The position numbers and the translations under genes were made by a program. Shown here in pieces: positions 10,309 to 28,176 of a stretch of 36,731 nt of DNA. Source of the stretch: a virus; IMG/VR virus record IMGVR_UViG_3300044630_005305, positions 1 through 36,731 of that record. One strand, given 5' to 3'. The notes below the pieces were generated by a model. The model saw only the letters and a list, made by a program, of their open reading frames with translations. It ran no database searches and had not been told where the DNA came from. Within the stretch, counting starts at the first letter, position 1. Every line of letters begins with the position of its first letter.

Positions 10309-13300
10309 TTATGAAATAAACGCCTTTTTAAGGTTAAATGTTTTATCCGTTGATGACTTATCTGAGTAAATTGCTAAAAGTCTATTAACGTCATCTTGAT
10401 TAACAGGTGCTTGTGTTAAATATGTGAACGTTCTTCTTTTTGTTATATCATCGTATGGTTGAAATGCTGCTGGTAAACTTATTTTTGTAAAATATGGGTT
10501 ACCTTCAAAATCTGTAAAAAATTTATCAACAGTTTTTTTAGATGTGTTATATCTTGAATATAATGTCACATTATTTGTTAATAACTGATTTAATCCCATT
10601 GCAATTTGTAAATAAGTCCTCCAATTATTTTTATCTGATTCGTTATCAATAACTGTAACTAATTCTTCAATAAAAATAATTGGATCTTCTAATATTTCTT
10701 TACCAAATATCATAAAGAATCTAATTTCAGCGTCGTTAAAGAAAGTTAAAGCCTGTTGTGATGGTGTTATAGTTGGTGTTGGTGTTGGTGTTGCAACAGG
10801 TGTGGTTGTCGGTGTTGGTGTTACCGTTGGTGTCGGTGTCGGCGTTGGTACGTTATTTCCGGCACAACTACCCGAAAATTCGTTAGTAACACAAATGGTA
10901 TTATTAACATAATTGTTATGATTAAAATAATTAAAAGTGGCTACAGGTGTTCCGCTAGAAACTCTTGTTGCACAAAATGTGTTTAAACTTGTTGTGTCAA
11001 CACCAACTGAATCACCTACGTTTATAGTGTTAAGAGGATCCCAATTATCTACTTGAAATATATTAAAAGGATAACAAGCATCTTGAAACAAATAATTTAA
11101 TGTTGGTGTTGCCGTTGGTGTTGCCGTTGGTGTCGCAGTTGGTACAGGCGTTGCAGTTGGTGTTGCCGTTGGTGTTGCCGTTGGTGTTGCTGTTGGTACA
11201 GGCGTTGCCGTTGGTGTTGCTGTTGGTACAGGCGTTGCAGTTGGTGTTGCTGTTGGTACAGGCGTTGCAGTTGGTGTTGCTGTTGGTACAGGCGTTGCGG
11301 TTGGTGTTGGTGTTGAAGTTGGTGTTCCGCTAAAATATACATTAAAATTAAAGTCACTATAGTTTGTTTGTGGTCTTAAAATATTAGAGTCTGTTAATTT
11401 TTGTATGTATAAGTTAAGTTCGTTACTAATACCTCCTAAATCATTTATCAAAGAAGAATAAGCACTTGTTGTGTAATCCGTTAATTCGTAAATAATTTCA
11501 TTACCAGCCTCTGTTTTATAACCATCTCTACTTGCCGATACAAAATTAGCCTTATCTATTTCATTTATTAAACTAATTTGAATATCATTAATTTTTGATG
11601 TGGCTTCTATTAATTTAGTTAAATAGTCTTGTTTTCTATCATCAACAAGATTTTTTATCTTTCTTTTTATTTTTCTAGTATCAGAAGTTGTTAATAATGA
11701 ATAAATACTATTTGTAGCACCTAAATTAGGTAAAATAGGACATCTATCGTTATCAACATCCTCTTTTGTTTTTTCAAATAAAATTTCAACTTTATTTTGT
11801 ATTTCAGTTGATGATCCAAAAATATTTGTATTAGAACTTGCGGTTTTACCTGAAGTATATAACCTATCATTACTTATTATTTGTAAACCACCAACTAATA
11901 AATCGTCATTTACTTTTTTAATTGAGTCGTAAGTTGTTTTTAAATAACTTTGTGCAAGTTTTACTAACTCTGTCATAAACAAGGTATAATCAATAGTTCC
12001 TGTGGCTGACCCATTAATAGGACTAAATCCTGCCGAAAGTATTAAACCTATAGGTTCTCCAATTTCATTTTCACTATCTCTATTTTGATTTATACCTAAA
12101 TTTTCTAATAGTTCTTCAAGTTGTTCTTCAGTTATTACAGGTCCCGGATCAGTTACTTCTGCCCTATCATCATACATTTCTGTATTGGCATAATAATTAA
12201 AAGATAGCGCGTTTTGTAATCTAGAAACAGGTTCTTTTAATCCGTGTCCACCTATAAAGTTAAAACTTATAGATACATCAGCCAACATTGGTTGAACCCC
12301 TAAACCTTCAGGGTTTATATCAAGAAGAGCATCTTTATATGATATCGATAAAGAGTCTATAACAATTTTTGTATGGAAGAAATCCCCAAATCTTAATATA
12401 CAAACAGGAGGTGCTCCAAATGCACTATTTTGTGCATCATTGTAATTCAACGTTCTTACACCATCGGACTCTGTTACTGTAGGGATAGTATCACCAGGTC
12501 TCATACACTGTTGTAAAAATGTTAATCTAGAATTTAAACCTTCAGGTGTTAAAGCATGGAATGCCGGTTCAAAGAATTTTAATTTTTCTTTCATTCCATT
12601 ATAAAACATTGGGTTTGTTTCTTGTATCATTTCAAAGTAATTACACTCACTAACAAGGGCTCTTACTAATTTTTTTAATACGGTTTCTTTAACTATTACA
12701 ACTTCTTTTGTTTTAATAATTTGTATTTCTTCATTTCCACTAGGGTCTGAAGATATTTCAGTACTATTACTTGTCTGAGGATTGTATATATTACCTTTGT
12801 CTATTGTGTTAACTGCTGATCCACCATCAGTAGATGTGATTGCCGTTGTTTGTGATGTTTCATTTGACGCATTACTTGAAGTAGTTGTGTTTACACCACT
12901 AGTATTATTTGTTTGAGTTACATTAGTTGTAGGCGGATAAACAATTGTTCCTGTATTAGTTGTTGTACCATTTTGTACATTACTAACACCTGTTTGTGCA
13001 GTTTCTGAGGTTGAGGTGGTTCCGTTTGTATTTGTTAAACTTGTGGCTTGAGTATCCATACCTCCTGGCATTACAGAAGTATTTGTTGTTGTAGTTTGAT
13101 TATTATTATACGTATTAGAACCTCCATTACTACCACTAGCACTGTTACTACCTCCACTATTATTTGTGTTAAGTTGGTTTGTTGGTTGGAATCTTGTTAT
13201 ATTAATTTCACTTATATAAACTCTCCTACAAGCCATCGAATTAACGGAAAAGAATCCTGTAATGTCATTTTCCGCACCATCACCATTATTTCTTGCTAAT

Positions 13301-16300
13301 GGGAAAGGTCTACCACAATCTATATTTTTATAGTTAGTTCCTTCAATATCAATAATAACGTCAAAAGATTTTGTATCAGGTACAATTTTTAATTTACCGT
13401 TGTTAATGTAGGTTGACAATTGATCAGATGGTTCAGATGAAAGTTGGTAGTTGTATATAAATTTATATACAGATTCACTTCTTCTTTTAGATATTTCTTC
13501 AGCAGCTTTTTGATCAGCCAAAGCCCCCGATGATGATGATTTTGTTTTTATTTCAATTTCATATCCTTGTTTTAAATACTGAACTATTTGTGTTAATATA
13601 CTATTAATATCGTTATATTGTTTTATAATTACATCATTCCAAAAAGCAGTAATACCATTAAGTGTTGAATCAACGTAATCTCTATAGAAATAAATGTCAC
13701 TAGGGTTTTGTGCGTACGTATATTCAGCGTCAATATACCAATCTATTCTTTCGGATGCGGCTAATGAGAACCCTATTTGATTTTTTGTACCAGTAGCAAT
13801 ACCTTCTATTTTTTCTGAATTTGTAAATGTTTGTGTTTTAATTCTAGCACCGTTATTATTTTGCCATTCCCCATTAGATTTTTTATAAACATACTTTACT
13901 GGTGGGTAGTTATAAACTCCGTTTACTAATACATCATTAGCCTTTACAGTTGATATATATTTTGATTGGAATTTATTCCATAGAATTTTATATCTATCAA
14001 AATACACTTGAAAAGGAAGAATATTAATCAATAAATCTTCTTCTGTTTGGGTGTATGTAGTAGATTTACAATAAGTGTTAAATCCATCTTTAAAAGGTCC
14101 TGAAGGTAGTTTATTTGTATTATCTGAAGATATCGCACTACCACCCCAACTATAGTACATCGTACCCGCTCTTTTATCAGTAACTTGCCCTTGTGATGTT
14201 AAATTAATTAAAGCATTTGGGTAGTCTAAACAACCTATTCTTGTTGGGTATGCGTGGAAGAAATAAAATGCCGGTTGTAATTTTACAACATCAACAAACG
14301 GATCGGGTTGTGGTTCAGGACATTGTCCATTTATACATTCACCTAAATTATTATTAGTACTGACTTCACCACTTGTATTTATTGGTGTTGTTGTTGAACA
14401 AACTTTTGTTAATTCCCCTGGACCGACTGTTACACTTTGTGTACTACCTGAACAATCTGTATACGTGTATGTATACCCCGCATATGAACTATCACCACCT
14501 AATTCATAACAAAAACATGGTGGTTGTGTTACTGTAGGTGTAGGTGAAGGTGTAGGTGAAGGTGTTGGGGTTGGACATGGTCCTGGTATTATAGACCAAG
14601 AGTTACCCGGATCACCCGGAGGATTAAAGTTTATAACTGAGTTTGGTGCGATACATGGGTTTCCTGTAGTATTTTGTTGCCCATTTAATACGATAACCGT
14701 TCCATCACATCCTGTGTATGTTACATCAGTAACTGTTGTTCCTACTGTCCATTGTGCTGAGACACAAGGAGGACACACACCCGAAACACATGGACCAAAA
14801 TTAGTTATTGTTGAATAGTCTCCGTCACCAGGGACCGGAATCCCCTGAGAACAAATTTTATCATAAGTGGTTACGTTTATTGATTGACTAATTCCGTAAC
14901 AATCAACATAAGTATAGTTTTTACCTGCGTATGCACCACCACTATTCAAAGCATAACAGTCACAAGCACCTAACGTTGGTGTAGGTGATGGTGTTGGTGT
15001 AGGTGATGGTGTTGGTGATGGTGTAGGTGTCGGACAAGGTCCTGTTTGTGCCGTCCACCCATTACCTGTTGCACCAGAAGGGGTTAACTCAATAATGGTG
15101 TTAGGTGCAATACATGGTGTGCCTGAAGTGTTTGTTATTGAATTATAAACAACAACAGTTCCATCACAACCTGTATATGTTACATCAGTTGCGGTACTTC
15201 CAACTGTCCAAATTGTTGGTATACATGGTGGACAATTTCCGTTAACACAAGGTCCGAAATTAACTATTGTTGAGTAATCTCCGTCTTGTGGTATTGGTGA
15301 ACCTTGTGAACATACTTTATCTTCGGTTGTAACAACAATTGTTTGAGTTGCACCATAACAATCAATATACTGATATGATTTACCTGCATATAACCCTCCA
15401 CTTGTTAATGAATAACAATCACACAAACCAGGGGTTGCTGTAGGTGTAGGTGATGGTGTAGGTGATGGTGTGGGTGTTGGACAAACACTATTATCTAAAA
15501 CTTTCCACGTTATCTGACTATCCACCACACTAAATGTTGGTGTTGTCCCTCTTTTTACAATAATATATCCACTTGTACCAGCACTTAATCCTGTTAATGT
15601 AACTAAATTACCGTCACAACCACTATAACTTAAATCAACTGTACTATATATTCCACCTATAGTCCACTCAATACAAGTACATGGTGGTGGTTCTGTTGGT
15701 GTCGCTGTTGGTGTTAATGGTGGTGGTTCATAATTTCTTATTATCGGATCGATTTCACAATTATCACTTATTTTTTTAAGTTGTCCGTCTACCAAAGCAT
15801 AACACTGTTCAATTAGTAAAAAATCTAAAGATGGAAATCTTAATGCTAATTCATATATATCATATTTTAAACATCCCGCAAAAAATGAAGCAATAACCTC
15901 AGTGAACTGAGATTCAGTTTCACTTACTTTTTTAAGTTCTTTATCAACAATCGCGTTAAGTATAGATGGGTGATCAACTACTATTTTCCAACTTAATTTT
16001 CCTGTTCTTTTTGTACTACCGTAAGTATAAATTGGTTCTGTTCTTCCTACAAAAATATTGTCATTCCATGTTGTACTTATTGATTCATCAAAACTAATAT
16101 CATATGGTGGGAACCACATTATTCTTCCACCATTAGGACCCTTTTCACATGTTGGTAAATCTTCGTACCTATACCCTGGTTTGTTAGATGTTCTCCAAGC
16201 TAAGTTTTCTAGTGAAAACATATATTTTTTAACTTTACCATCAACAATGTTTGTAGACTCAACAGTACTTGTTGAAGAGGCAGGTGGTTTAAGTGGAGCA

Positions 16301-19300
16301 ATATTTAAATTATATGTTTTATCTAAAACTGAATATGTAAATCTTCTATTTTCAACGGTAGTTCCTTCTGTTTTAACAAGTCTATTAAATGTATAATATG
16401 GATCATCTTTTGTATGTACCCTACAGTATTCGTAACCTTCAACATCGGTAACGTTTGGTTGTGTTTGAACCGCATTTGGTGTTAAGTATCTAATGACTCT
16501 TGAACCTTTTGTTAGTTCTACATATCCATCGTTGAATACTTTTGATATTTGGTTCATTGCATGTCCAACATGTTTTAATCTGTCAGAACCTGTAGCCCCT
16601 GATGCACTGTCTATTAATTTTTGAGTGTAATCTAAAATAGATCCAGGTGTAAAATTTTCTTTAAAATTACTAGAAAGTGTTTTAGAAAGTGAAGATTCAA
16701 ACCCAGTATTAAATGTCACCCTTTGATCGTATGGTGTGTATCTTCTACCCGCCAATACCCCAATTTCAGGTAATGTATTTGGGTCTGAACTCCAAGTAAA
16801 CCCTCCTTGTAAACTCCAACCAGGATAAGCTCTAAACATCATTTGTTTGAACTTATTCTGTTTTGATTCTTTAATTTCTATTTCATTTGATGTAACCCCA
16901 AATTTAATGTCGGGAATTGCAGTTGTTCCATTAGTATTGTCAGGAGTTTCAAAATCCCTGTACATGGCATCATGTCCAAAAACAGGGATATTTAAAATAT
17001 TACCAAATCTACCTCTTGGTTTTGCGTTTGGTGATGTGAAGTTACTATCCCAATCTGTTTTTTTACCAACATAGAAATATGGTCTAATTGCTATGTTATC
17101 TACATTACCATCTCCTGTATTTGCATAGTCAGGTCGGTATAGGTTATATTCTAATACATCAAATAATTTTTTTAATGTTCCTCGTCCTGTGTTTTCAATA
17201 AATCTATATGAACCAACTAAACCATCATTTGCTAATTTAAATAATGAAAATTTACCATCGTCTTCTTTAACATTAATATTACCTTTTTTTGTTAATTTAA
17301 ATCTATTAGGATTAGGAAAATATTCGTCGGGAATATAAGACCAAGGTGATGATAAACCACCTAATCTAGCCGCGAAATTTAAAGTTTTACCAATAATAGT
17401 ATCAGGAACAGTTATATTCCAATTTCTTGTAAAAACAGGAACATTACCTGTTGCCATTCCTAAAATATCTACAGGATCAGTATTTGGTTTAACTTGTATT
17501 CCCGATAATGTTGGGTTATTTGGATCAACAGTCGCATCTACTAAATTGGTTTTACCTATAGTATTTTCAACTAATTCTGAAATAATTCTGTAAGTAAATT
17601 CTTGTTTTAATCTTTTACTAGCAATTTGCATTAAACTAGAGTCCTGACTTACGGTTCCATCACTACCTATTGGGTTTGGAAGTAACAAAATTGAATATGG
17701 TGAATATACTGATGGTATAAATATTTTAGTCGATCCGTCAGTATTCGCATATGGTTGATTTAAAGATTGTATTGCTAAATCACTTACCGTTACCAATTCA
17801 GGATTTCCATAAGAAAGTTCAGGTACGTATTTATTTTTTAGATATACGGCATCTAACCCTTCTTCCGCCTTTATTTCTAAATTACTGTCTTTAGCATCTT
17901 CTTGATTATAAGGACCGTATTCCCCCTTATCGTTAGTACCAGGACTACTAAGGACACTAATTTGTTCATTATCATTAATGTCGTATCTTGTTATACCATA
18001 AAGATCACCACCATTTTCAGGTTTATATAAATTTATTTCATATAAAGTTTGTAATACGTTAAATAATGGAAACTGAATTCTACTAAAGTCAGCATCGGAC
18101 AAATCATACTCACCGGGATTTGGATTTAAATTATTTGTTAATATTTCATTATTATTTATGTCGTATCTTGTTAAACCAAAAGGTGATGATGTACTATTTC
18201 CTTCAGGCTTGTAGTAGTTTTGGGTAAACGCAACAACACCACTATTTTCTCCGTATATTTGTAATAAACTTGGTTCAGTGTCTGTTAAATCATATACGCC
18301 ATTACTATTTGGTATCTGTGCGGATTGTCTAAACCATTGTAAATCATTATTAACATCATATCTAGTATTTCCAAAAAATATGTTGCTACTTGTTAATGGT
18401 TTATATTGGTTTTCATTATAATTTAATCCTTCTAATATGTTACCTTTTACTTCTAGTATTGAATTTACTGTGTCTGCAGCAGTATCATATTCACCTGATC
18501 CAGGTGTTGCGCCAATGCTTTGTGCGTACGATACTCTACCATTTTGTACGTCATCATTTATGTTCCATTCTATGGGAGAATAAACAACACTAGGTTTAAA
18601 TTGGTTAATTCCATATAAATTAATTTGTTCAGGTGTTGCTTTAACGGATAATAAATTACTTAATATCCAAGGTAATGCTGATGCAGTTACGTTATATTCG
18701 CCATAACCTGTTGTTAAATTAAATTGTTGTAAATCGTTATTTATATCATAACTTGTATCACCATAAAATATGTTACCGTTTGTTGATGGTTTGTATATAT
18801 TTGTATTGTAAGCAACTCCTTCTTCAATATTACCTTTTACTTCTAATAAATTATTTAAAGTATCATTAATATCATATATACCTGATCCAACATTTGCGTT
18901 AAATCCTAAAGCGTAAGATATTCTTAGTTGTTGTACGTCATTAATTATATCATATCTACTACTTCCATAGACATTATTTCCTTGTTGTGGTGGTGCGTAT
19001 TGATTTTTTACCCAATGGAATAGTTCTTGAATATTACCTTTAACCTCTAAAAAGTCATTTACGGTATCATTAATATCATATATACCTGAACCAGGTGTTG
19101 CACCAAAACTTTGTTGGTATGAGGGTCTAAATGATTGTAAATCATCATTTATACTGTACTTACTACTACCATATATGTTTGCCCCAAATTGTGGTGGAGC
19201 ATATTGGTTCTTATTATAGTGAAAACCTTCTTGAAAATTTCCTTTGGTTTCTAATACATCTCCAATAGTATCGTCTATTGTATATTCACCTGTACCAATG

Positions 19301-20115
19301 CTTCCCCCAATTGAGATTCTAAACTCTTGTAAGTCGTCATTAATCGTCCATCTAGTAATACCATATATTTCATTACCTTGTAAAACAGGGAAATATTGAT
19401 TTTTAAAATATAAAAAAGATTCTTGTGTGTTACCAACAACTTCTAACTCATCACCAAATGTGTCTGTAATATCATAAATGTCACCTTTAAAAGGATTATA
19501 AACATTTTTATCATCATTAATATCGTATCTTGACGTACCGTACCCTCCGCTTTCACCAGTAATGTTGCTTGTTGGTACATATATGTTTCTTATAAAATGA
19601 AGCGTTTCTTGGTAATCTCCTATATTTTCTAAATCACTTCCTATTGAATCTGTGAAATCATACACGTCATTTTTAGAACCTTTTTGTAAATCATCATTAA
19701 TATCATACCTTGAACTACCATAAGTTCCATTAGGTATGTATATATTTTTTACATAAAGAAGGTTTTCTTGAGTATCACCAATAGTTTCTAATCTACTACC
19801 AAAAGTATCTGATAAATCATAACTACCAATACCTGTTTCAGTATTAAGATTTACATTAATCTGAACAGTATCTCCATAAAAAAGAGTATTCTCAGGCGTA
19901 TATTTGTTTTGTGTGAATAAAAATCTTTCTTGTAAATCACCAACAGATTCAATTGGTGGTGAATCAATTACAGAATAATCAACCAAAATAATTTCACTTC
20001 CAGGTCTTTCATTTGAATTTGAATGTGTACCTGTTGAATTATAAGGTTCAAGATTTTTTAATAAAAGCCTCTTTCTAAAATTTTCACTAGCGTTAAATGA
20101 TAACGGACTCTCCAT
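10309..20115 (-). CDS. giant modular baseplate/tail surface protein
   Basis: 3268 residues, the largest protein here. Order of parts: about 11 tandem repeats of 60-70 residues (about 58-765) with G.YD..DT....LE..GN.QE and [10 protein letters not shown]; a region with [15 protein letters not shown] and [20 protein letters not shown] (about 1328-1387); three and two copies of two Cys-rich modules joined by PTPTPSP linkers (about 1465-1945); an OmpA-like domain (about 2145-2235); a Ser/Thr/Asn-rich linker (about 2310-2460); a domain with [20 protein letters not shown] and [20 protein letters not shown] (about 2500-2655); helices; another PT-rich segment (about 2935-3110); and a C-terminal helical region. 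The 1328-1387 and 2500-2655 segments resemble the two ends of gp48/gp54-type tube-cap proteins. It lies between tape measure and gp53-like genes, the usual place of tube initiator genes. Exact role is inferred. Confidence 0.7.
10770..10860 (-). repeat. Pro-Thr linker-coding repeat
   Basis: GGTGTT/GGTGTC hexamer-type repeats (plus strand) that encode TPTPTPT linkers after the last Cys-containing segment of the 3268-residue protein. They form an extended spacer. Confidence 0.7.
11100..11313 (-). repeat. minisatellite with 30-bp units coding [10 protein letters not shown]
   Basis: The marker GGTACAGGCG (plus strand) occurs at 11141, 11195, 11225, 11255 and 11285. Four copies are spaced exactly 30 bases apart and the first is 54 bases away, an extra 24 bases of a 6-base GTTGGT-type subunit. 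All differences keep the frame, so the number of Pro-Thr units in the linker can change by slippage or recombination without breaking the gene. Confidence 0.9.
14315..15428 (-). repeat. alternating Cys-rich modules (A-B-A-B-A) in the surface protein
   Basis: Coding repeats of about 200 bases. Module A (C.CY....G..YAG..Y.Y.DC.G..Q, ending near GPC..G.CPP) occurs at about 15222-15428, 14768-14966 and 14315-14518. Module B (WTVG....[11 protein letters not shown], then PC.AP, ending [10 protein letters not shown]) occurs at about 15035-15235 and 14572-14770. A more diverged B-like unit precedes them (about 15480-15690). Recent copies of A and B are close in DNA as well as protein, which suggests tandem duplication of an A-B pair. 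PTPTPSP linkers separate the pairs. Confidence 0.8.
17815..19940 (-). repeat. about 11 tandem protein repeats of 60-70 residues
   Basis: Codes for repeats in the N-terminal quarter of the 3268-residue protein. Each holds a [SI]..YDI.DT....LE..GN.QE half, then N.Y.P, then YG.[ST]RYDINDD. About ten YDINDD-type motifs can be counted (for example [45 protein letters not shown]). The copies have diverged but remain alignable. A fibrous or collar-like stack of beta hairpins is one possibility. Confidence 0.8.
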
Positions 20116-20178: not shown

Positions 20179-22284
20179 CTATGAAAAATTACCTTGTCCT
20201 TTTTTATACGCTTCACTTAATCTATAATTAACAACTTTCATAATTTCATCTTTTAGTGCTCCTTGAAATTCTCTATCGCTACTTAATGCGTTACTTAACA
20301 AACCGTTAGGTACGTTAACGTTAATATTAACATTACCATCAACACCTACATTACCATCAATTCTTTGTGATGAGCTTATGTTTTGATTAATCACTGTTTC
20401 ACCAACTTCTTGTAAACGTCCAATACTATTTGCCACTAAATCAGTTATATTAGTTGATTGAAAATTTTCAGGTACCTTTGTAGGTACGTTTTTCACAAAA
20501 TTCATTAAATTTTCAGACATACTATTACCAACATAACCTTCTAATTTAGAAATACTTCCAAACGCAGTATTAGCATCATTCATAAGTTCTGTAACATTAG
20601 GCATTGCTAATATTTCATCGTTAAAATTCAACTTATAAAATTCACCAACACCTGTAGAAACAACTTTGTCTTTACCAGTTTTTCCTACAAATAAATCACC
20701 AGCACTATTAACATTTATATCGGTATTAACAGGTGTTGTTCTTGCACCCCCTCCTCCTGCAGTACCACTTGTACCAAACCCTCCCGATGGATACGCAGCA
20801 CTAAGGGCATTTTTAAAATTAGTTAAAGCGGTTGCAATATCTTCCTTAGCCCTTGTATTGTCGTCAACATAATTAAATAAATCAGTATTTAATTGTTTAA
20901 TAATATTATCTAAAGTATCTAAACTTTTAGTTGTTTTTTCGGCGGCAGTCATTAATTCACCCATTTGTGAACCGGTTTTTGACATTTTTTCTAACTCTTC
21001 GGGGTATACATCCAATCCTGCAGTTCCTTTTGCAAAAATTAAACTATTTTTTATTTGTTCTAATGAAATATTGGCTTTATCCTGTGCTGAAAGTTGATTC
21101 TGAGCGATATCCATCATTTCAATTTGTAATTGTGCGGCAGATTTACCTTCTAACTCCGCATTTTCTCTAAGTTTTGCCAAGTCTTCAGCGTTAAGAGTTG
21201 ATGCGTCCTTCAAATCTTTTACACCAGGAATTTGAATCATGACTTTATCCCCTTTGATTTCTGACAAACTTGCTACTAAATTTTTATCTTCTTCACTAAA
21301 AGAAGAAGGTAAATCTATCATTGACAATACCTGTGTTTGTTTTGCGGCTTTAATCGCACTTTCAGATATCTCTTCATAAGACATACCAAGTTTTCCAGCC
21401 ATTTCTTTAAGTCTGTACATTTCAGAAACAGGAATTTTAAACTCACCTGTTGTAGAATTAAAATCAACAGCAGATTCTGTTGCCTTTATCATTTCTTCTT
21501 GTAAAGCACCAACATCATTTTGAGCCATATATAACAACTGAAATGGATCACCCAAAGCACCAACAGCACCACCTAACATTTGCATACTTGCTGCCGTTTC
21601 AATAGCCGTATCAGGATCTAAAACATCTTGTGAAAATTTCATAGCATTTTCCATACTTATACCCAATTGTTGTGCCCTTGCAGCCATTTTTGTTAACCCA
21701 TCTATACCGTCTTTAAAACCGTAGGTACTAGCTTTACTTATGTTTTTTGTAACGTCTGATGTTAGTTTTGAAGCATCTACACCATATCTTCTTCCAACCA
21801 TATAAATCTTATTCAATTTTTCCATAGATTTAGATTGTCCGATTCCGATTTTTTCCATAGCACCAACAAATTGACCAACCTCCTTTGTTGACATACCAGT
21901 CGCTTTAGCAAATACAATAGCATTTTCGATAACATCGTCTTGAATTGCAGGTATTCTTCCTAATTGTTCTCCATACTCTGTAATATAGTCACTAACATCT
22001 TTTACTGATGCACCATATTTTAAATTATCTTGATATAAGTTAAACATGGTATCAGCAATTAATCTTTGATTTGCAACTATACCATTACTTATTGATTTGG
22101 ATGTTTTTACTGCTTCATTTTCTAATGCAACAAAGAATCCTTGTATTCTTTTAATATCAAACGCATCTGCAAATGCCTTTTTAAAATCTTCAGTAGCATA
22201 ACCAATGGGGTTTTTGGTATTGGCACCAGGAAATATACCCTCATCTGATTTAGTTTCGTCAACGTTACCAACAAAAAATAGCAT
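20179..22284 (-). CDS. tail tape measure protein
   Basis: 701 residues. Tape measure proteins set tail length while the tube polymerises around them and are later released through the baseplate. Seen here: a largely helical protein with TP901-like segments (AKATGMSTKEVGQFVGAMEK at about 125-145, GISMENAMKFSQDVLDP at about 210-228), a Gly/Ala-rich hydrophobic stretch (MLGGAVGALGDPFQLLYM, about 240-258), a Gly/Ala/Thr-rich linker near 520-545 and a helical C-terminus. Its length is in the range of T4 gp29 (590), which fits a tail of roughly T4 size. It lies directly after the gp26/gp51-like gene and its frameshift extension, the standard position for a tape measure gene. Start at 22284, 6 bases after a TATTTATTATTAA element. 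Confidence 0.8.
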   Translation of the reverse strand: MLFFVGNVDETKSDEGIFPGANTKNPIGYATEDFKKAFADAFDIKRIQGFFVALENEAVKTSKSISNGIVANQRLIADTMFNLYQDNLKYGASVKDVSDYITEYGEQLGRIPAIQDDVIENAIVFAKATGMSTKEVGQFVGAMEKIGIGQSKSMEKLNKIYMVGRRYGVDASKLTSDVTKNISKASTYGFKDGIDGLTKMAARAQQLGISMENAMKFSQDVLDPDTAIETAASMQMLGGAVGALGDPFQLLYMAQNDVGALQEEMIKATESAVDFNSTTGEFKIPVSEMYRLKEMAGKLGMSYEEISESAIKAAKQTQVLSMIDLPSSFSEEDKNLVASLSEIKGDKVMIQIPGVKDLKDASTLNAEDLAKLRENAELEGKSAAQLQIEMMDIAQNQLSAQDKANISLEQIKNSLIFAKGTAGLDVYPEELEKMSKTGSQMGELMTAAEKTTKSLDTLDNIIKQLNTDLFNYVDDNTRAKEDIATALTNFKNALSAAYPSGGFGTSGTAGGGGARTTPVNTDINVNSAGDLFVGKTGKDKVVSTGVGEFYKLNFNDEILAMPNVTELMNDANTAFGSISKLEGYVGNSMSENLMNFVKNVPTKVPENFQSTNITDLVANSIGRLQEVGETVINQNISSSQRIDGNVGVDGNVNINVNVPNGLLSNALSSDREFQGALKDEIMKVVNYRLSEAYKKGQGNFS

Positions 22285-22310: not shown

Positions 22311-22463
22311 TTATTTTTTGTTACTTTCTTCTACAAATTTATCAACAAAAAAACGTCTTTCAAAAATTGGCATAATTAGTAAATCACGGTAAGTAAATCC
22401 CGAATATTTAACTAAATAATAAAATTCATTTAATTGATTTTTTTTATATTCAGAAGAAAGGAC
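22311..22463 (-). CDS. frameshift extension of the tail assembly chaperone (ATG-less ORF)
   Basis: Fifty codons plus TAA, in the +1 (equivalently -2) frame relative to the upstream gene and overlapping its last 14 bases. The frame stays open upstream to a TAA near 22530 but has no ATG except one that would leave only 20 residues (22373). The peptide contains NEFYYLVKYSGFTYRDLLIM and then MPIFERRFFVDKF, a pattern typical of the C-terminal extensions of tail assembly chaperones (G-T type) found before tape measure genes. A run GTTTTTTC at 22464-22470, read GAG TTT TTT CGT, would allow tRNA-Phe to slip +1 onto TTC or -2 within the T run. The result is a fused protein continuing VLSSEYKK. Family pattern and position support it; slippage itself is inferred. 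Confidence 0.7.
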   Translation of the reverse strand, partial: VLSSEYKKNQLNEFYYLVKYSGFTYRDLLIMPIFERRFFVDKFVEESNKK

Positions 22464-23199
22464 GAAAAAACTCCGCCCCAAAAGCAACACTAACAGTGAC
22501 TCTTTCTCCTGACGGGGCTGTAATTACTCTATCTAAATCAAGTTTAGGCTCACACTCTGATATGAAATTTCTAATATATTTAGAATCAGCAATTGGCATT
22601 TGTTGTACAAATTTTATAATAGATTGTCTGTCTGTGTTACCCTCTAACTCTACTATTGTTTTTTCTAATCTTTTAGTGACTACAGGTACAGTTATATTTG
22701 GTGGATATGAGTCTCTGATTTTATCTAACTCTCTTTGATCACCTAAGTTTAATAGTTTACACTTTACCGTTTTTTCACTTTTAGGTAATTTCATTACAAA
22801 TAAACCATTTTCATCAGGTTCATGTATTGGTTTAATGTAGTTCAACTCATCAATGTTTAACGTAACCTCAAATATTTTACCCGTTGCCGGATCATTAACT
22901 TTAAAAGCATACTCCGATCCAAAAGATGTATTTCTTAAAAAGATTAATATTGCTTGAACATCCACATCAATTAATTGGTTAATATCAAAACCTGGTTCAT
23001 ATATCTTATTTCTTAATAATTGATAAATTATACCGTCTTTTGCCATATTTGGGGACATTAAAATGTTTTCATCTTCTGCCGTCAAATACCCTACTTTAAA
23101 TGATTCTTTTTTTTGTTTATAAAATCTACCTTTACTAGGTAGTGGTACCACATCATGTGGTAGTGTAAAAAATTCTTGACCGTAACTTGAAGTTTCCAT
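22450..23199 (-). CDS. gp26/gp51-family baseplate/tail assembly chaperone
   Basis: 249 residues. The N-terminus LPHDVVPLPSKGRFYKQKKE is followed by VGYLTAEDENILMSPNMA, then INQLIDVDVQAILIFLRNTS and FGSEYAFKV. This series matches the T4 baseplate family that holds gp26 and gp51 (lPS.G.fY, DE..L, D...lll.lR..syG..Y). The CP.C pair seen in some relatives is replaced by NDPATGK, so no zinc site. In T4 these proteins help hub assembly; here the gene stands directly before the tape measure gene, like tail assembly chaperones of other phages, and ends in a probable frameshift site (see the extension). If that is right, two products arise: this 249-residue form and a longer one of about 295 residues. 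Confidence 0.75.
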   Translation of the reverse strand: METSSYGQEFFTLPHDVVPLPSKGRFYKQKKESFKVGYLTAEDENILMSPNMAKDGIIYQLLRNKIYEPGFDINQLIDVDVQAILIFLRNTSFGSEYAFKVNDPATGKIFEVTLNIDELNYIKPIHEPDENGLFVMKLPKSEKTVKCKLLNLGDQRELDKIRDSYPPNITVPVVTKRLEKTIVELEGNTDRQSIIKFVQQMPIADSKYIRNFISECEPKLDLDRVITAPSGERVTVSVAFGAEFFRPFF

Positions 23200-23300: not shown

Positions 23301-23789
23301 TTAGTATACAAGAATACATCTATCCATTTGGATATTAACTTTAACGGTACTTAACTTATCGTCATCGTAAGATAATGATCCTCCATCAAAATTAGTTAAG
23401 AAACACCCAATTAATTTCCATTTTTCAACAGCAACTCCCGTTGGGTCTAACATTTCTAAGTCAACATCTTTTTTATAACCCGCGGCATAACCCATACGTC
23501 CTGTTATTGATTCCGCAGTTAAACGAACCCACTCCATAAGTGCCTGTGCCGCAGATGGTCCAATAGGGTCTCTAAATGTTACATCCATAGCCTCCCATGT
23601 AAATCTACCCGCAACGAATGTTGACGTATTTAAAAATGGTATTTCAACTGAATTAATTTTCATTTTAGGTCTTGCAGTAGATTCTACGTACCAAGAGTTA
23701 ATCCCCAAGTCATTTGGGAATGTAAGTATGTACCTGTTATTTCTTTTAGGTTCATACGTGAAGGGCATTTTCATTAATAAATCAGCCAT
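23301..23789 (-). CDS. tail tube protein (gp19-like)
   Basis: 162 residues, almost the same length as T4 gp19 (163). Hexamer rings of this protein stack to form the inner tube through which DNA passes. Recognisable features are the start PFTYEPKRNNRYILTFP, the central TFVAGRFTWEAMDVTFRDPI, WVRLTAESITGRMGY and the C-terminal SYDDDKLSTVKVNIQMDRC, all in the order expected for the tube beta-barrel fold. The gene has a long A/T leader with TATTTATATAAA 31 bases before the ATG and a strong terminator behind it, so it is probably a separate, highly expressed monocistronic unit. In T4, gene 19 directly follows gene 18 (sheath); here two other genes lie between. Confidence 0.93.
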   Translation of the reverse strand: MADLLMKMPFTYEPKRNNRYILTFPNDLGINSWYVESTARPKMKINSVEIPFLNTSTFVAGRFTWEAMDVTFRDPIGPSAAQALMEWVRLTAESITGRMGYAAGYKKDVDLEMLDPTGVAVEKWKLIGCFLTNFDGGSLSYDDDKLSTVKVNIQMDRCILVY

Positions 23790-23820
23790 TTTTTTTTGTT
23801 TTAACTTCTTTTATTGTTTT

Positions 23821-23833
23821 ATATAAATATATC
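23821..23833 (-). promoter_or_regulatory. TATTTAT element before the tail tube gene
   Basis: Reads GATATATTTATAT on the minus strand, 31 bases before the ATG at 23789, in a 109-base gap with no gene. The only member with a long A-rich leader besides that of the sheath, which fits two strongly expressed structural genes. Confidence 0.45.
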
Positions 23834-23898
23834 GTTTTTAATTTTTTTCTATTTACTTTAATTTTTTTTAAAATTATCCTTAACTAGAAAATACATTA

Positions 23899-24780
23899 TT
23901 AATTATATTTTATTTTCTTATCTCCTTTAGTTAAATATACTGATATAGGTAAATCAGGATATTCATTAGAAACTAAATCTGAAATTGCCTTTACGTTTCC
24001 TGGGTCGTCATCAGAAAACCCAATTATTGGTATTATTTCATTGTTAGCAACGTCATCTTTAAATATTGCACCGGATTTACCGATAACTGACGCCATTTCT
24101 TTACAATAAGAAATAAAATTCCTCATTGCCACTTTTTTCTCTTCTTCAGGATTTGCTGCGCTACCCTTACCATATGTAACAGGTTCAAAAATACACATAT
24201 CTAAATACTCGTTTAATTCCGTATTACTTAATTTGTATTTTTTATTGTCTCTTGATGGTTCATTTCCAATGTCTCTATAAAGTTTTAAACTTCTGGCTAA
24301 ACTTGAACTATCAATTCCCATATGATTTTTTTTGATTAAGTTAGCAACTGCAGTTTTTAAAGTCTCAGGACTATGTCCTCTTGCTGTTATAATTGAGAAT
24401 ATTGAACCTCCATTTATACACTCCACAAAATCATTCCATGCAGGACCAACAGGTGATGTCATTGCATCCACTATAAATCTTGAGTTACTTTTTGGATTAT
24501 CTGTAAAGTAAATATATGGAACAGGTGTGTAACCGACTATCTTAGTCCCTTTATAATTAAAAGGTTCAACCCCAACTTGGTGTCTATGTTCTCTAAAATC
24601 TTCCGTAGACATACCTACTTCCTCATCGTTCTCACTTAAAACCATGATTTTAGTTGGCATCATCATAATATTATCGTCCCAATCAAAGGCATAATATTTT
24701 AAATCAGGAGTACCTTCTTCAGAAATACCTTCTAATAGTTTTTTTCTAAGATAAGATTTAACATGTAAATTAATATTCAT
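23899..24780 (-). CDS. HAD-superfamily phosphatase-like protein
   Basis: 293 residues. HAD motifs can be followed: motif I YYAFDWDDNIMMMPT, with Asp33 as candidate nucleophile and Asp35 as acid/base; motif II FSIITARGHSPETL (Thr132); a possible motif III Lys in the region 205-245; and motif IV GFSDDDPGNVKAI (Asp257-259). The final G-T of the classical DxDGT is replaced by D-N. Between motifs I and II is a long cap-like insert (about residues 45-120) with no known match to me. HAD enzymes in phages include 3'-phosphatases of polynucleotide kinases and nucleotide phosphatases; the substrate here cannot be named. Placement between sheath and tube genes is unusual. The ATG overlaps the stop of the 45-codon gene as TAATG, implying translational coupling. 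Confidence 0.75.
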   Translation of the reverse strand: MNINLHVKSYLRKKLLEGISEEGTPDLKYYAFDWDDNIMMMPTKIMVLSENDEEVGMSTEDFREHRHQVGVEPFNYKGTKIVGYTPVPYIYFTDNPKSNSRFIVDAMTSPVGPAWNDFVECINGGSIFSIITARGHSPETLKTAVANLIKKNHMGIDSSSLARSLKLYRDIGNEPSRDNKKYKLSNTELNEYLDMCIFEPVTYGKGSAANPEEEKKVAMRNFISYCKEMASVIGKSGAIFKDDVANNEIIPIIGFSDDDPGNVKAISDLVSNEYPDLPISVYLTKGDKKIKYN

Positions 24781-24981: not shown

Positions 24982-27900
24982 TTATACATCCTCAAAAGAC
25001 GCTCCTGTTGGAGTTATAACAAACTCAATATCAATATATTCTAACGCTCTTGTTGGTTTCAAATAAATTTTACCTGTCAATGTGTTAGAATCTAAATCTT
25101 CAGGAGTGTTAGAAACTGTAACTCTAAAGTCAATTAAACCTCTATCTCTTCTTATTTCATCCAATATTGGGTTAACAGAGTCTAAGAAGTCTTGTCTAAC
25201 TTTTTGATCGTTTTGTTCAAACAACAATCTAACCGCCACGGCTGAAATCAATTTACGTGCTCTTAAAAGTAATCTTCTAACATTAATTCTATCTAAAGCA
25301 GATTCTTTAACTTGTAAAGTTTTGTTACCCCAAATCACAGTACCGACATCAGTAAATGTGGCAATTGGGTTAATTCTTCCTTTATAAAGAGTGTCTCTAT
25401 CATCTTGAGTCAAAGTTTTTCTAGCCTTAATTGAATTTACCAAACCTCTTGTGTAACCTGCAGATGCAAACCAAGGTTTAAATATTTTATCAGTTAACGC
25501 TAAATTTCTACAAACTTCGGCAGTTGCTGGTAAAAATAACTGTGTATTATTTTCGCTATCTCTTGTTAATACCCAAGGATAATAAGTTGCGGTATAGTTT
25601 GAATCTATATTTGCGGTATCCAAGTTATCTACTGCCTCATCAGGAAACACTAAATACTCTTCTAAAGTTTCAAAACTTGATGTAGTAAATAAATTATAGT
25701 CAGGAGTTGTTGTAATATATATTGAATCCGCTCTATCATCTTCAATCATATCTACCGCTTCTGAAACTAAGTTACTATTATTTACATAATCAACACCAGG
25801 AGTTACAAAAATATTAATGTCAACCGCCTCAGGATTAGCAAATGTTTTTTGTCCCCATAAGTACGCGAAGTAGTCAGTATTACCCCAAACTTCTTGGTTT
25901 GGACCTGTAATTAACTTAAATAATCCTGTACCTGTGGCCGTTGGGTACGAAGCACTTTGTCTGGCACCTTTTAACCATCCATTGGCTCCTAAAGTAAATC
26001 TGTCAGTATTTCTTCTTGATTCTGTATAAATGTCCCAACCATCAAACCCACCGTAAGCATAGAAAGTAAACTTACGAGTAACTAATTTGTAGTATGGGTT
26101 ATCTTGATCTGTTGGATCACTTGTGAAACTAGCTTCTCCTACTTGGAATGCCGAATCACCTGAATTACTGAATGTCCCTCCTATTGTCACAACAGTAGCT
26201 CCACTATCCATGTGGAAACCTTGTGTTTTCCAAGACCACTCAGAACCAGGGTTATCGATTGTTCCAACAGGAGCTTGTTTTCCTTTATACAAGAAGAAGT
26301 CAGTATCGAATCCTGTTTGATCAGCAATACCTAAATAATTTTTATTAAGTTTTTCACCACTTGCAGGTGCATTAATTGTGTTGTCACCGCCACCGGCAGC
26401 ACCAAATGGTGGATTATATATTACCTCATTTGGTCCGTAGTATTGTGTTTTGTACTCAATAAATGGTGGTTTACTATTTGCATAAACTCTTTGAGTGTAT
26501 CCCTCAAATCCACAAGGTAATGCATCTGTTGGTGCCTCGTCACTCATTACTAACATGATATATTTAGACTTAAGTGCGTATTCACCATTAGACGTACCAA
26601 TTTTATTTGCAATGTAATTATTTTGTGTTGGGTCCAATGAACAACCATTGAAAGATTCTAAAATTGTTACGTTAGCGTCTGTGTCGTAAAAACTTCTTAC
26701 AACTAAATCAAATGTACCATTGTTAAACGATACGTTTCTAATTGAAAATTTAACTTGGTAGTTAGCCTTAGTACCATCAGAAATTAATTTAATTTTGAAA
26801 AGTTTATAAACTTTATTACCTCTTAATTCAGAAACCACATATGGTGTTTCAGGTGTTTGATATCTATCTAAATAATAACCTAAAGTGTTTGTGTTAGGAC
26901 TTGTTCTTAATCCTGGTAAAGCCAATAAAGTTGAGTTTAATCCTCTAATTTTATTTTTATAATAAGATGTTTGTAAAAATGCTGGATAAGTTTCCTCAAC
27001 AAATAGTGGGAACGTGTCTCTATCTTTACCATCAGCAAAGTTAGAGATACCAAAAACTTTACTTATAAATTTAGTGGATAAATAATCCATATTGGCATCA
27101 AAAGTAAATGTTGTATTATCTGTAGTGATACCTGAAATTTTAAATGTTGCGTATGGATCTGATGTCATACCTGATGATGATGCTGGAACTAAAGTTACTG
27201 CGGTTGTTGCTGAAACTTTGTAAACAGGTCCATTATCACTAACATATGTTGCAATACCTCTAGATCTTAAAGTTGCTACTACAATATCATCATAATCAGC
27301 ATAAGAGTCTGCGTCATAATTTGTAAGATAAACTGCAAACGATCCTGAATAAACACCACCACCTAAACTGTTTATTGTTGCTAATTTAGTACCAAAACCA
27401 TAACCATAATAATGTCCTACATTATTCACATCTTGGTAATATGAGAACTGATTACTGTAGAACCAAGGATCGTTAACTGAAGGACTAAAATCAGTACTAT
27501 TGTTGGCTATTAATGTATTAACACCATAAACTTCAGTAACCGCAGTAACAGAAGTTGCCGTTACTGATGTATAAGTACTAGCACTCACACTACCAAAGAA
27601 TAAAGCGGTTGTTGCGGAAGAAGGGGTATTGTACCTTCCTATTTCAGTAACCATTAAAGTTTCTATTTGACTTTGTATTGAACTAGATCCTCCATCATAT
27701 GTTACAAAAGTATCATAATATGCTCCTGAAATTGGTGATGGTAATGTTACCGAAGTGATTCCTGCGGAAGTTCCTGTAAAATAAATGTAACTTGGTCCAC
27801 TTGTACCTGTTATAGATAACGTACTTACGTCAGGATTTGCTATAGTTGTAATAGACCAAGATGGTCCCGCATCATAACCTGATAAACCTAAAATCCTAGT

Positions 27901-28176
27901 AACATATAATTGATTCGATTCTTGTAGATATGCTTTAGCTATGTATGCTGCTTCGTATTTAGGAATGGTTGTTCCTATAAATTTTTCTGGGTTAATACCA
28001 CCAAATGTTGTTGTAAATTCGTCATAGTTTGTAATAAAAATAGGTTCAAATGCGGGACCTTGAAGTGTCTCCCCAACAATACCTAATGTTGTTACCCCTA
28101 CTGACTGCGTTACAAAAGTTAAATCCCTTTCTGAGGTATAAACACCTGGTGATACAAAAACTTTTCCGTTAGCCAT
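24982..28176 (-). CDS. contractile tail sheath protein (gp18-like)
   Basis: 1064 residues, against 659 in T4 gp18. The N-terminus VFVSPGVYTSERDLTFVTQS and then TLGIVGETLQGPAFEPIFIT, followed by EFTTTFGG and AAYIAKAYLQES, is the classical sheath start. The C-terminus LLLRARKLISAVAVRLLFEQ, VRQDFLDSVNPILDEIRRDR and IDFRVTVSNTPEDLD is the conserved sheath core that binds the tube and the neighbouring subunits. The extra 400 or so residues lie between, mainly about 110-700, rich in Ser, Thr, Tyr and Gly, and probably form outward-facing domains. The ATG lies 29 bases after TATTTATAATAA, and a stable hairpin follows the stop, consistent with a highly expressed single-gene unit. Confidence 0.93.
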   Translation of the reverse strand: MANGKVFVSPGVYTSERDLTFVTQSVGVTTLGIVGETLQGPAFEPIFITNYDEFTTTFGGINPEKFIGTTIPKYEAAYIAKAYLQESNQLYVTRILGLSGYDAGPSWSITTIANPDVSTLSITGTSGPSYIYFTGTSAGITSVTLPSPISGAYYDTFVTYDGGSSSIQSQIETLMVTEIGRYNTPSSATTALFFGSVSASTYTSVTATSVTAVTEVYGVNTLIANNSTDFSPSVNDPWFYSNQFSYYQDVNNVGHYYGYGFGTKLATINSLGGGVYSGSFAVYLTNYDADSYADYDDIVVATLRSRGIATYVSDNGPVYKVSATTAVTLVPASSSGMTSDPYATFKISGITTDNTTFTFDANMDYLSTKFISKVFGISNFADGKDRDTFPLFVEETYPAFLQTSYYKNKIRGLNSTLLALPGLRTSPNTNTLGYYLDRYQTPETPYVVSELRGNKVYKLFKIKLISDGTKANYQVKFSIRNVSFNNGTFDLVVRSFYDTDANVTILESFNGCSLDPTQNNYIANKIGTSNGEYALKSKYIMLVMSDEAPTDALPCGFEGYTQRVYANSKPPFIEYKTQYYGPNEVIYNPPFGAAGGGDNTINAPASGEKLNKNYLGIADQTGFDTDFFLYKGKQAPVGTIDNPGSEWSWKTQGFHMDSGATVVTIGGTFSNSGDSAFQVGEASFTSDPTDQDNPYYKLVTRKFTFYAYGGFDGWDIYTESRRNTDRFTLGANGWLKGARQSASYPTATGTGLFKLITGPNQEVWGNTDYFAYLWGQKTFANPEAVDINIFVTPGVDYVNNSNLVSEAVDMIEDDRADSIYITTTPDYNLFTTSSFETLEEYLVFPDEAVDNLDTANIDSNYTATYYPWVLTRDSENNTQLFLPATAEVCRNLALTDKIFKPWFASAGYTRGLVNSIKARKTLTQDDRDTLYKGRINPIATFTDVGTVIWGNKTLQVKESALDRINVRRLLLRARKLISAVAVRLLFEQNDQKVRQDFLDSVNPILDEIRRDRGLIDFRVTVSNTPEDLDSNTLTGKIYLKPTRALEYIDIEFVITPTGASFEDV

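Follow-up and report, generated by a model that had tools for sequence, protein, structure and literature searches.

The 36,731-nucleotide viral sequence IMGVR_UViG_3300044630_005305 of IMG/VR, analysed here at its full length and hereafter called the window, carries a tail assembly chaperone gene of the T4 gp26/gp51 family (PF12322). It is very probable that this one gene gives rise to two products through programmed +1 ribosomal frameshifting with a hairpin upstream of the shift site. Judging from homologous loci, two versions of this tail-building helper protein appear to come from a single gene throughout a large tailed-phage family.

The chaperone gene and its +1-frame extension

The frame-0 gene (22450..23199, stop TGA at 22452-22450; minus strand, like all parts of the system described below) encodes the short form, a T4 gp26-like protein of 249 residues (TAC-N). 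The product matches PF12322 (T4_baseplate) with 34.2 bits (E 2.7e-8), above the cut-off of 24.5, and PHROG_150 with 49.7 bits (E 6.8e-13), which places the gene in the PF12322/T4 gp26-gp51 family. The structure model (AF2, pLDDT 82.9), which covers the frame-0 product only, resembles viral gp26/gp51-type models, the best named match being the baseplate hub of SP-15 (1.9e-17). Searches of the PDB by sequence and by fold gave no match, and no bacterial copy of the chaperone was found in a scan of genome contigs. The window and nine contigs of the same clade, which are up to 321 kb long and of unproven completeness, each have a single PF12322 gene; the two-gene arrangement of T4 was not found there.

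The 3' end of the frame-0 gene reads GAG TTT TTT CGT CCT TTC TTC TGA, and a downstream open frame with its stop at 22311 lies in the +1 frame (equivalent to -2) relative to it. This frame would add a C-terminal extension of 50 residues (VLSSEYKK...ESNKK; 22311..22463, stop TAA), giving a predicted fusion of 295 residues with the junction EFF-VLSSEY. The initial annotation had proposed a hidden frameshift extension of a gp26/gp51-family chaperone at this place. Its coordinates, the T6 run, the frame-0 reading and the +1/-2 relation of the downstream frame all proved correct on re-reading the sequence, and the proposal itself is strongly supported by conservation, substitution pattern and alignment with PHROG_150.

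Scans of IMG/VR retrieved 160 homologous loci, 159 of which include the slip site; 77 of these are non-redundant. One other record (L001) holds an identical copy and may represent the same phage population. The extension is in the +1 frame, never in the -1 frame expected of shifting at an X_XXY_YYZ site, in 159/159 loci; its length is confined to 48-52 residues across the 77 non-redundant loci, and the frame-0 stop lies 3 to 5 codons past the arginine codon of the slip site in all loci. Since the frame relation and the site recur in all 159 loci, the site cannot be the product of a sequencing error that turned five T into six. Pairwise ratios of nonsynonymous to synonymous substitution (dN/dS) are 0.29 for the extension in its +1 frame and 0.32 for the upstream gene, compared with 1.17 and 0.92 when the extension DNA is translated in either of the remaining frames; these sequence comparisons show purifying selection on the extension in its +1 frame and in neither of the others.

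The predicted fusion product aligns with positions 17-281 of the 282 positions of PHROG_150 at 54.3 bits, compared with 49.7 bits for the short form. T4 gp51 covers positions 13-280 of this profile and gp26 ends at position 235. A profile of the extension matches the combined cyanophage/gp51 tails with an hhalign probability of 85%, and the gp51 tail alone with 6%. By these alignments the predicted long form has a gp51-like C-terminal tail, and its end-to-end alignment with the gp26/gp51 profile is the reason for considering the gene a putative tail assembly chaperone.

The slip site and its codon constraint

The slip site, UUU UUU C, occupies positions 22464..22470, with the T6 run at 22465-22470, the C at 22464 and the presumed P-site codon UUU at 22467-22465. 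The second UUU and the following C are invariant in the 159 loci, and the first phenylalanine codon is UUC in a few. The A site would be occupied by a rare arginine codon, CGU (22462..22464), which is CGN in 159/159 loci. The sequence TTTTTTCGTCC occurs once in the window, where 0.06 occurrences are expected by chance. In the 77 non-redundant loci, the codons leading to the site are F (TTT 70, TTC 6, TTA 1, the last encoding the one L), GGG (77/77), GYN and GA[CAGT]; they are followed by TTT (76, with TTC in 1), TTT (77/77), CGN (77/77), CCT (77/77) and TTC (77/77).

Such uniformity departs from the codon usage of these genes. Elsewhere in the chaperone gene arginine is encoded by CGN in 7% and by AGR in 93% of cases, and GGG accounts for 11% of glycine codons; among the 367 arginine codons of the window, 90% are AGR, CGC occurs a single time and CGG is absent. 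A degenerate-codon DNA scan with the pattern GGNGYNGANTTYTTYMGNCCNTTYTTY, in which all synonymous positions were open and neither the arginine nor the phenylalanine codons were fixed, gave at least 79 matches, and CGN, TTT as second phenylalanine codon and the same frame relation were present in 79/79 among the matches listed. The use of CGN in place of AGR is accounted for by a +1 slip, since re-pairing of the phenylalanine tRNA from UUU to UUC requires a C after UUU. The core of the +1 site of influenza PA-X is also UUU CGU C. No conserved RNA structure was found 3' of the slip site.

A covarying hairpin upstream of the slip site

In the consensus fold, an invariant GGGG pairs with an upstream CCCC to form the outer stem of a two-part hairpin. 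The 5' arm of this stem (GCCCCG, 22513..22518) pairs with the 3' arm (UGGGGC, 22475..22480), 98% of the cells being paired; the edge of the 3' arm is 7 nucleotides 5' of the P-site UUU, and its GGG codon is present in 159/159 loci. The inner stem is formed by 22496..22502 (5' arm) and 22482..22488 (3' arm), and both of its arms show silent compensatory changes across 140 loci. Neither this hairpin nor the rarity of the A-site arginine codon had been noticed in the initial annotation.

Covariation was measured on 140 non-redundant gapless sequences, selected with CG required at the arginine codon and with the silent positions of both arms free. Pairing is found in 89% of cells; shuffled alignments reach 81%, and sliding the partner gives 35-59%. 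Cells in which both sides have changed number 147, compared with 58 in shuffles. The covariation score of 0.320 (0.197 +/- 0.007 in shuffled alignments) was reached by 0/500 shuffles. Kinship alone can push sequences past such shuffles, and silent changes were therefore examined. Two inner-stem pairs link third codon positions. In the first, lysine AAA/AAG is matched with T/C four bases before GGGG (AT 30, GC 24, AC 5, GT 4; Fisher p 9e-9, relatedness uncorrected); in the second, the third bases of V/L and V/I codons form A-T 53, G-C 21, T-A 9 and C-G 5. On the protein tree, at least 18 and at least 24 switches between paired states are required for the two silent pairs. In the outer stem, alanine is encoded by GCC in 110/112 and threonine by ACC in 28/28 sequences, and in two loci, L219 and L326 (both GCA), GGU replaces GGG in a compensatory manner (CACC/GGUG).

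A covariance model of the hairpin matches the clade members and phages tested at the slip-site hairpin only, other matches being at chance level; the single match in Rfam was a chance one, below its cut-off and on the other strand. When the 51 nucleotides upstream of the site are folded and compared with synonymous shuffles, the mean z of the clade is -2.33 (n=12), compared with -0.24 for -1-shifting relatives (n=10). Distant +1 relatives average -1.42 (SP-15 -2.73, LR756508 -2.74, Mel-JY01 -1.33, GXN1 -0.84, LIS04 +0.56), and QdP_Psa3 gives -0.58 to -2.60 depending on the length taken. With its covariation and its location directly 5' of the shift site, the hairpin corresponds to a refolding upstream stimulator of +1 shifting.

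The strand between the two stems (UCAGGAGAAA, 22503-22512) is unpaired and strongly conserved (GGA in 137/140); it could be a ribosome contact or merely reflect the protein sequence SGE. A Shine-Dalgarno-like role of the conserved GGGG was also considered and dropped in favour of its pairing with the upstream CCCC, because GGGG changes together with CCCC and because gene starts in the clade are devoid of such motifs: these precede 3% of clade gene starts, compared with 5% in shuffles (n=346). The corresponding figures are 64% for T4, 68% for the SP-15 group and 3% for PTm1 (n=37).

Proposed mechanism and alternative explanations

It is proposed that the shift takes place at the ribosome, with an efficiency that would leave most ribosomes to end at the frame-0 stop and produce the short gp26-like form. 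A minority would reach the second UUU with the rare CGN codon in the A site; the phenylalanine tRNA (anticodon GAA) would then release UUU and re-pair one base forward on UUC, and the shifted ribosomes would read the 50-residue extension to give the gp51-like long form. The two-part hairpin would be melted by the advancing ribosome and refold behind it. Its inner stem would close first, outside the ribosome, and the outer C4/G4 stem not before the ribosome has reached the slip site, so that closure of the outer stem would pull or block the mRNA and favour a forward slip. Together, the short and long forms may cover the tape measure protein and bring in subunits of the tail tube. There are precedents for the role assigned to the hairpin. 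An upstream hairpin beside the shift site stimulates +1 shifting in yeast (PMC3639245), a reconstituted 70S system responds in the same way to an upstream hairpin that imitates an internal Shine-Dalgarno duplex (PMC6321510), and in T4 gene 60 a 5' stem that closes late is considered to exert a pull on the mRNA (PMC5009743).

The codon constraint, the loci that lack a start codon and those in which the T6 run is broken favour +1 shifting over the other explanations considered. The initial annotation had left open a +1 or a -2 shift, of which the former, from UUU to UUC, is now the better supported. In a -2 shift, the phenylalanine tRNA on the second UUU would slip back two bases within U6 and reach the same frame with one extra phenylalanine; a precedent exists in phage Mu (PMC5009743), and U6 is present in almost all loci. 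This explanation is nevertheless very unlikely. The overlap and the frame relation that the initial annotation proposed to follow in homologues are kept in the 159 loci, but the T6 run is not: it is broken to UUC UUU CGN in four non-redundant loci (L189, L210, L223 and L314; L252 repeats L210), where the -2 codon would be UCU and -2 re-pairing is excluded. The sites of Streptococcus phage GXN1 (UUC UUU CGU) and of LR756508 (AAC UUU CUA) are also without U6. Moreover, a -2 shift leaves the use of CGN instead of AGR unexplained, and a duplex on the upstream side reportedly works against backward slipping (PMC6321510).

Even less credence can be given to transcriptional slippage mediated by a stem-loop, in which RNA polymerase would drop one U as the nascent hairpin forms and ordinary translation would yield the same fusion. 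The succession of a hairpin and a U run does resemble the slippage cassette of Penno et al. 2015, as far as this is described where PMC5009743 cites it. However, the run is of 6 only, the stem ends 4 nucleotides before it, and the strict CGN rule would be left without explanation. The homopolymer run of such a cassette is furthermore interrupted in the four non-redundant loci with UUCUUUC, whose runs of at most 3 go together with a retained hairpin, frame relation and extension.

The least probable alternative is that the extension is a separate small overlapping gene with its own start codon. Upstream start codons of the +1 frame (ATG, GTG or TTG) do occur in many loci; the window has GTG at 22490 and L002 has ATG. 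In six loci (4/77 non-redundant), however, none of the three follows the last +1 stop ahead of the slip site, and ATG and GTG are both missing in 24/77 non-redundant loci. In addition, the conserved LSS-Y-K just past the slip precedes any downstream start, and gp51, with which the fusion product aligns, is one chain in T4. The possibility that translation begins independently at a TTG within the conserved TTTGGG was also rejected, as TTT varies to TTC/TTA and stops intervene before the slip site in some loci.

Several points weigh against +1 shifting driven by the hairpin. All of the support for it is drawn from sequences. The hairpin of the window has a z of -0.21, no better than synonymous shuffles, compared with about -2.5 for the 11 other clade members, and its inner stem contains one C x U mismatch. 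The 7 nucleotides that separate it from the P-site codon exceed the 3 nucleotides of the Shine-Dalgarno signal of RF2, and covariation of the outer stem depends on one compensatory event, in two related loci. Finally, a host among the Bacteroidota is probable for the window without being certain; this assignment is based on the lack of Shine-Dalgarno motifs in the clade and on the hiding of the anti-Shine-Dalgarno by ribosomes of Bacteroidia (PMC9976891).

It seems rather more plausible than otherwise that phages of hosts blind to Shine-Dalgarno signals, probably Bacteroidota, have swapped the internal Shine-Dalgarno duplex for a refolding mRNA hairpin combined with a hungry CGN codon. In such hosts a hairpin could be a sensible replacement for the duplex. 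Similar but unrelated hairpins may serve the +1 sites of SP-15, GXN1, LR756508, Mel-JY01 and QdP_Psa3.

Neighbouring genes in the window

The chaperone gene sits between the tail tube and presumed tape measure genes, the usual place of a tail assembly chaperone. The tail tube protein is gp19-like (23301..23789, minus strand; PF06841 1.4e-7, PHROG_4542 1.3e-25). The presumed tape measure gene (20179..22284, minus strand) begins 27 bases past the stop of the extension and is so named from its position and length; searches of its product against family profiles gave no match above threshold.

An open reading frame of 293 codons (23899-24780) occupies an unusual place between the sheath and tail tube genes and has no family match; its segment YYAFDWDDNIMMMPT resembles what we take to be a HAD-type phosphatase motif. 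The tail sheath protein itself is 1064 residues long (24982-28176), and since the PHROG_23 sheath profile matches best at residues 749-1061, its N-terminal two thirds may be a large insert or extra domains. Another open reading frame, of 3268 codons (10309-20115), contains many repeats and repeated YDINDD(L)Q-type motifs and would encode a very large structural or adhesin-like protein.

Comparison with known systems

According to PMC10885494 and PMC12846349, Vladimirov et al. 2022 recognised gp26 and gp51 of T4 as its tail assembly chaperones; PMC12846349 also credits these authors with polyT -1 signals in T4-like phages. The link between gp26/gp51 and the G/GT chaperones of other phages, which the initial annotation had offered as new, was therefore published before. 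Nor is the direction of the shift as unusual as had been thought, since -1, -2 and +1 shifts were all known in the tail chaperones of different phages by 2016 (PMC5009743). The novelty lies in the +1 direction, in a slip site built on a rare codon and in a natural signal formed by an upstream hairpin, in phages without Shine-Dalgarno motifs; a literature search that left most subscription papers outside its reach turned up neither a +1 shift in PF12322 nor the hairpin. The long form of the chaperone is absent from most annotations of these phages.

The system shares with T4 gp26/gp51 the PF12322/PHROG_150 family and the coexistence of a short and a long form, the latter with the same kind of C-terminal tail, but in T4 each form comes from a gene of its own, the two genes being divergent, without frameshifting. 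Two PF12322 genes are also found in Campylobacter phage CP220. In the single-copy relatives examined, the extension is out of frame. A single detected copy with a -1-frame extension at a U-rich site occurs in P-SSM2, Syn9, HTVC008M, Cr30, phiM12, phiW-14, P10VF, Atu_ph07, PA5oct and XacN1; the +1-frame extension is found in the window clade, SP-15, LIS04, GXN1, LR756508, Mel-JY01 and QdP_Psa3. The -1 chaperones of cyanophages, pelagiphage HTVC008M and others thus resemble that of the window in having one gene for two products, a U-rich site and a homologous extension, but they slip by -1 at U_UUU_UUY-type sites and do not match the hairpin model. One chaperone family would then have taken three routes to two products: two genes (T4), a -1 shift (cyanophages and others) and a +1 shift (the window clade).

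Some observations on these relatives may be useful for their annotation. A -1 extension follows a TTTTTT site in loci L102-L108 and L109-L111, from cyanophages, a pelagiphage, rhizobiophages, Cr30, phiW-14 and some jumbo phages. By itself, the P-SSM2 extension matches PHROG_634, 'baseplate hub assembly catalyst' (2e-29), so that some entries of this family may be frameshift tails recorded as genes in their own right. In Pseudomonas phage QdP_Psa3 (L330:2462-3331), an unannotated +1 extension follows the TTC TTT CCC TAA of a PF12322-like gene; a hairpin may lie immediately 5' of it. ORF-022 of Tenacibaculum phage PTm1 (L331:25168-26275), of 297 residues like the fold match A0A5S9C0Y7, is followed by an overlapping +1 extension; a search of PTm1 with the family alignment gave no match, and fold match, length and position are the basis of this chaperone candidate. 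The stretch 23304-24503 of the same PTm1 sequence is without annotation.

Lambda G/GT and other tail assembly chaperones are alike in genomic position, gene layout and presumed use, but lambda shifts by -1. The +1 shift of RF2 (prfB) has in common with the proposed mechanism a forward slip of the P-site tRNA, a slow A-site codon and an upstream duplex; the window site differs in having a sense codon and, 7 nucleotides upstream, a hairpin within the mRNA. If confirmed, it would be a natural, deeply conserved case of +1 frameshifting driven by an upstream hairpin, and a natural system in which RNA refolding moves the ribosome forward, an idea that has so far come from constructs and from T4 gene 60. 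Close parallels are the refolding upstream hairpins of Cho 2013 (PMC3639245) and Huang 2018 (PMC6321510) and the 5' stem loop of T4 gene 60 (PMC5009743), in which a hairpin behind the ribosome stimulates +1 or forward movement. These are constructs or, in gene 60, a 50-nucleotide bypass, whereas the window site, known from its sequence, would be a natural single-base +1 shift kept in more than 150 loci.
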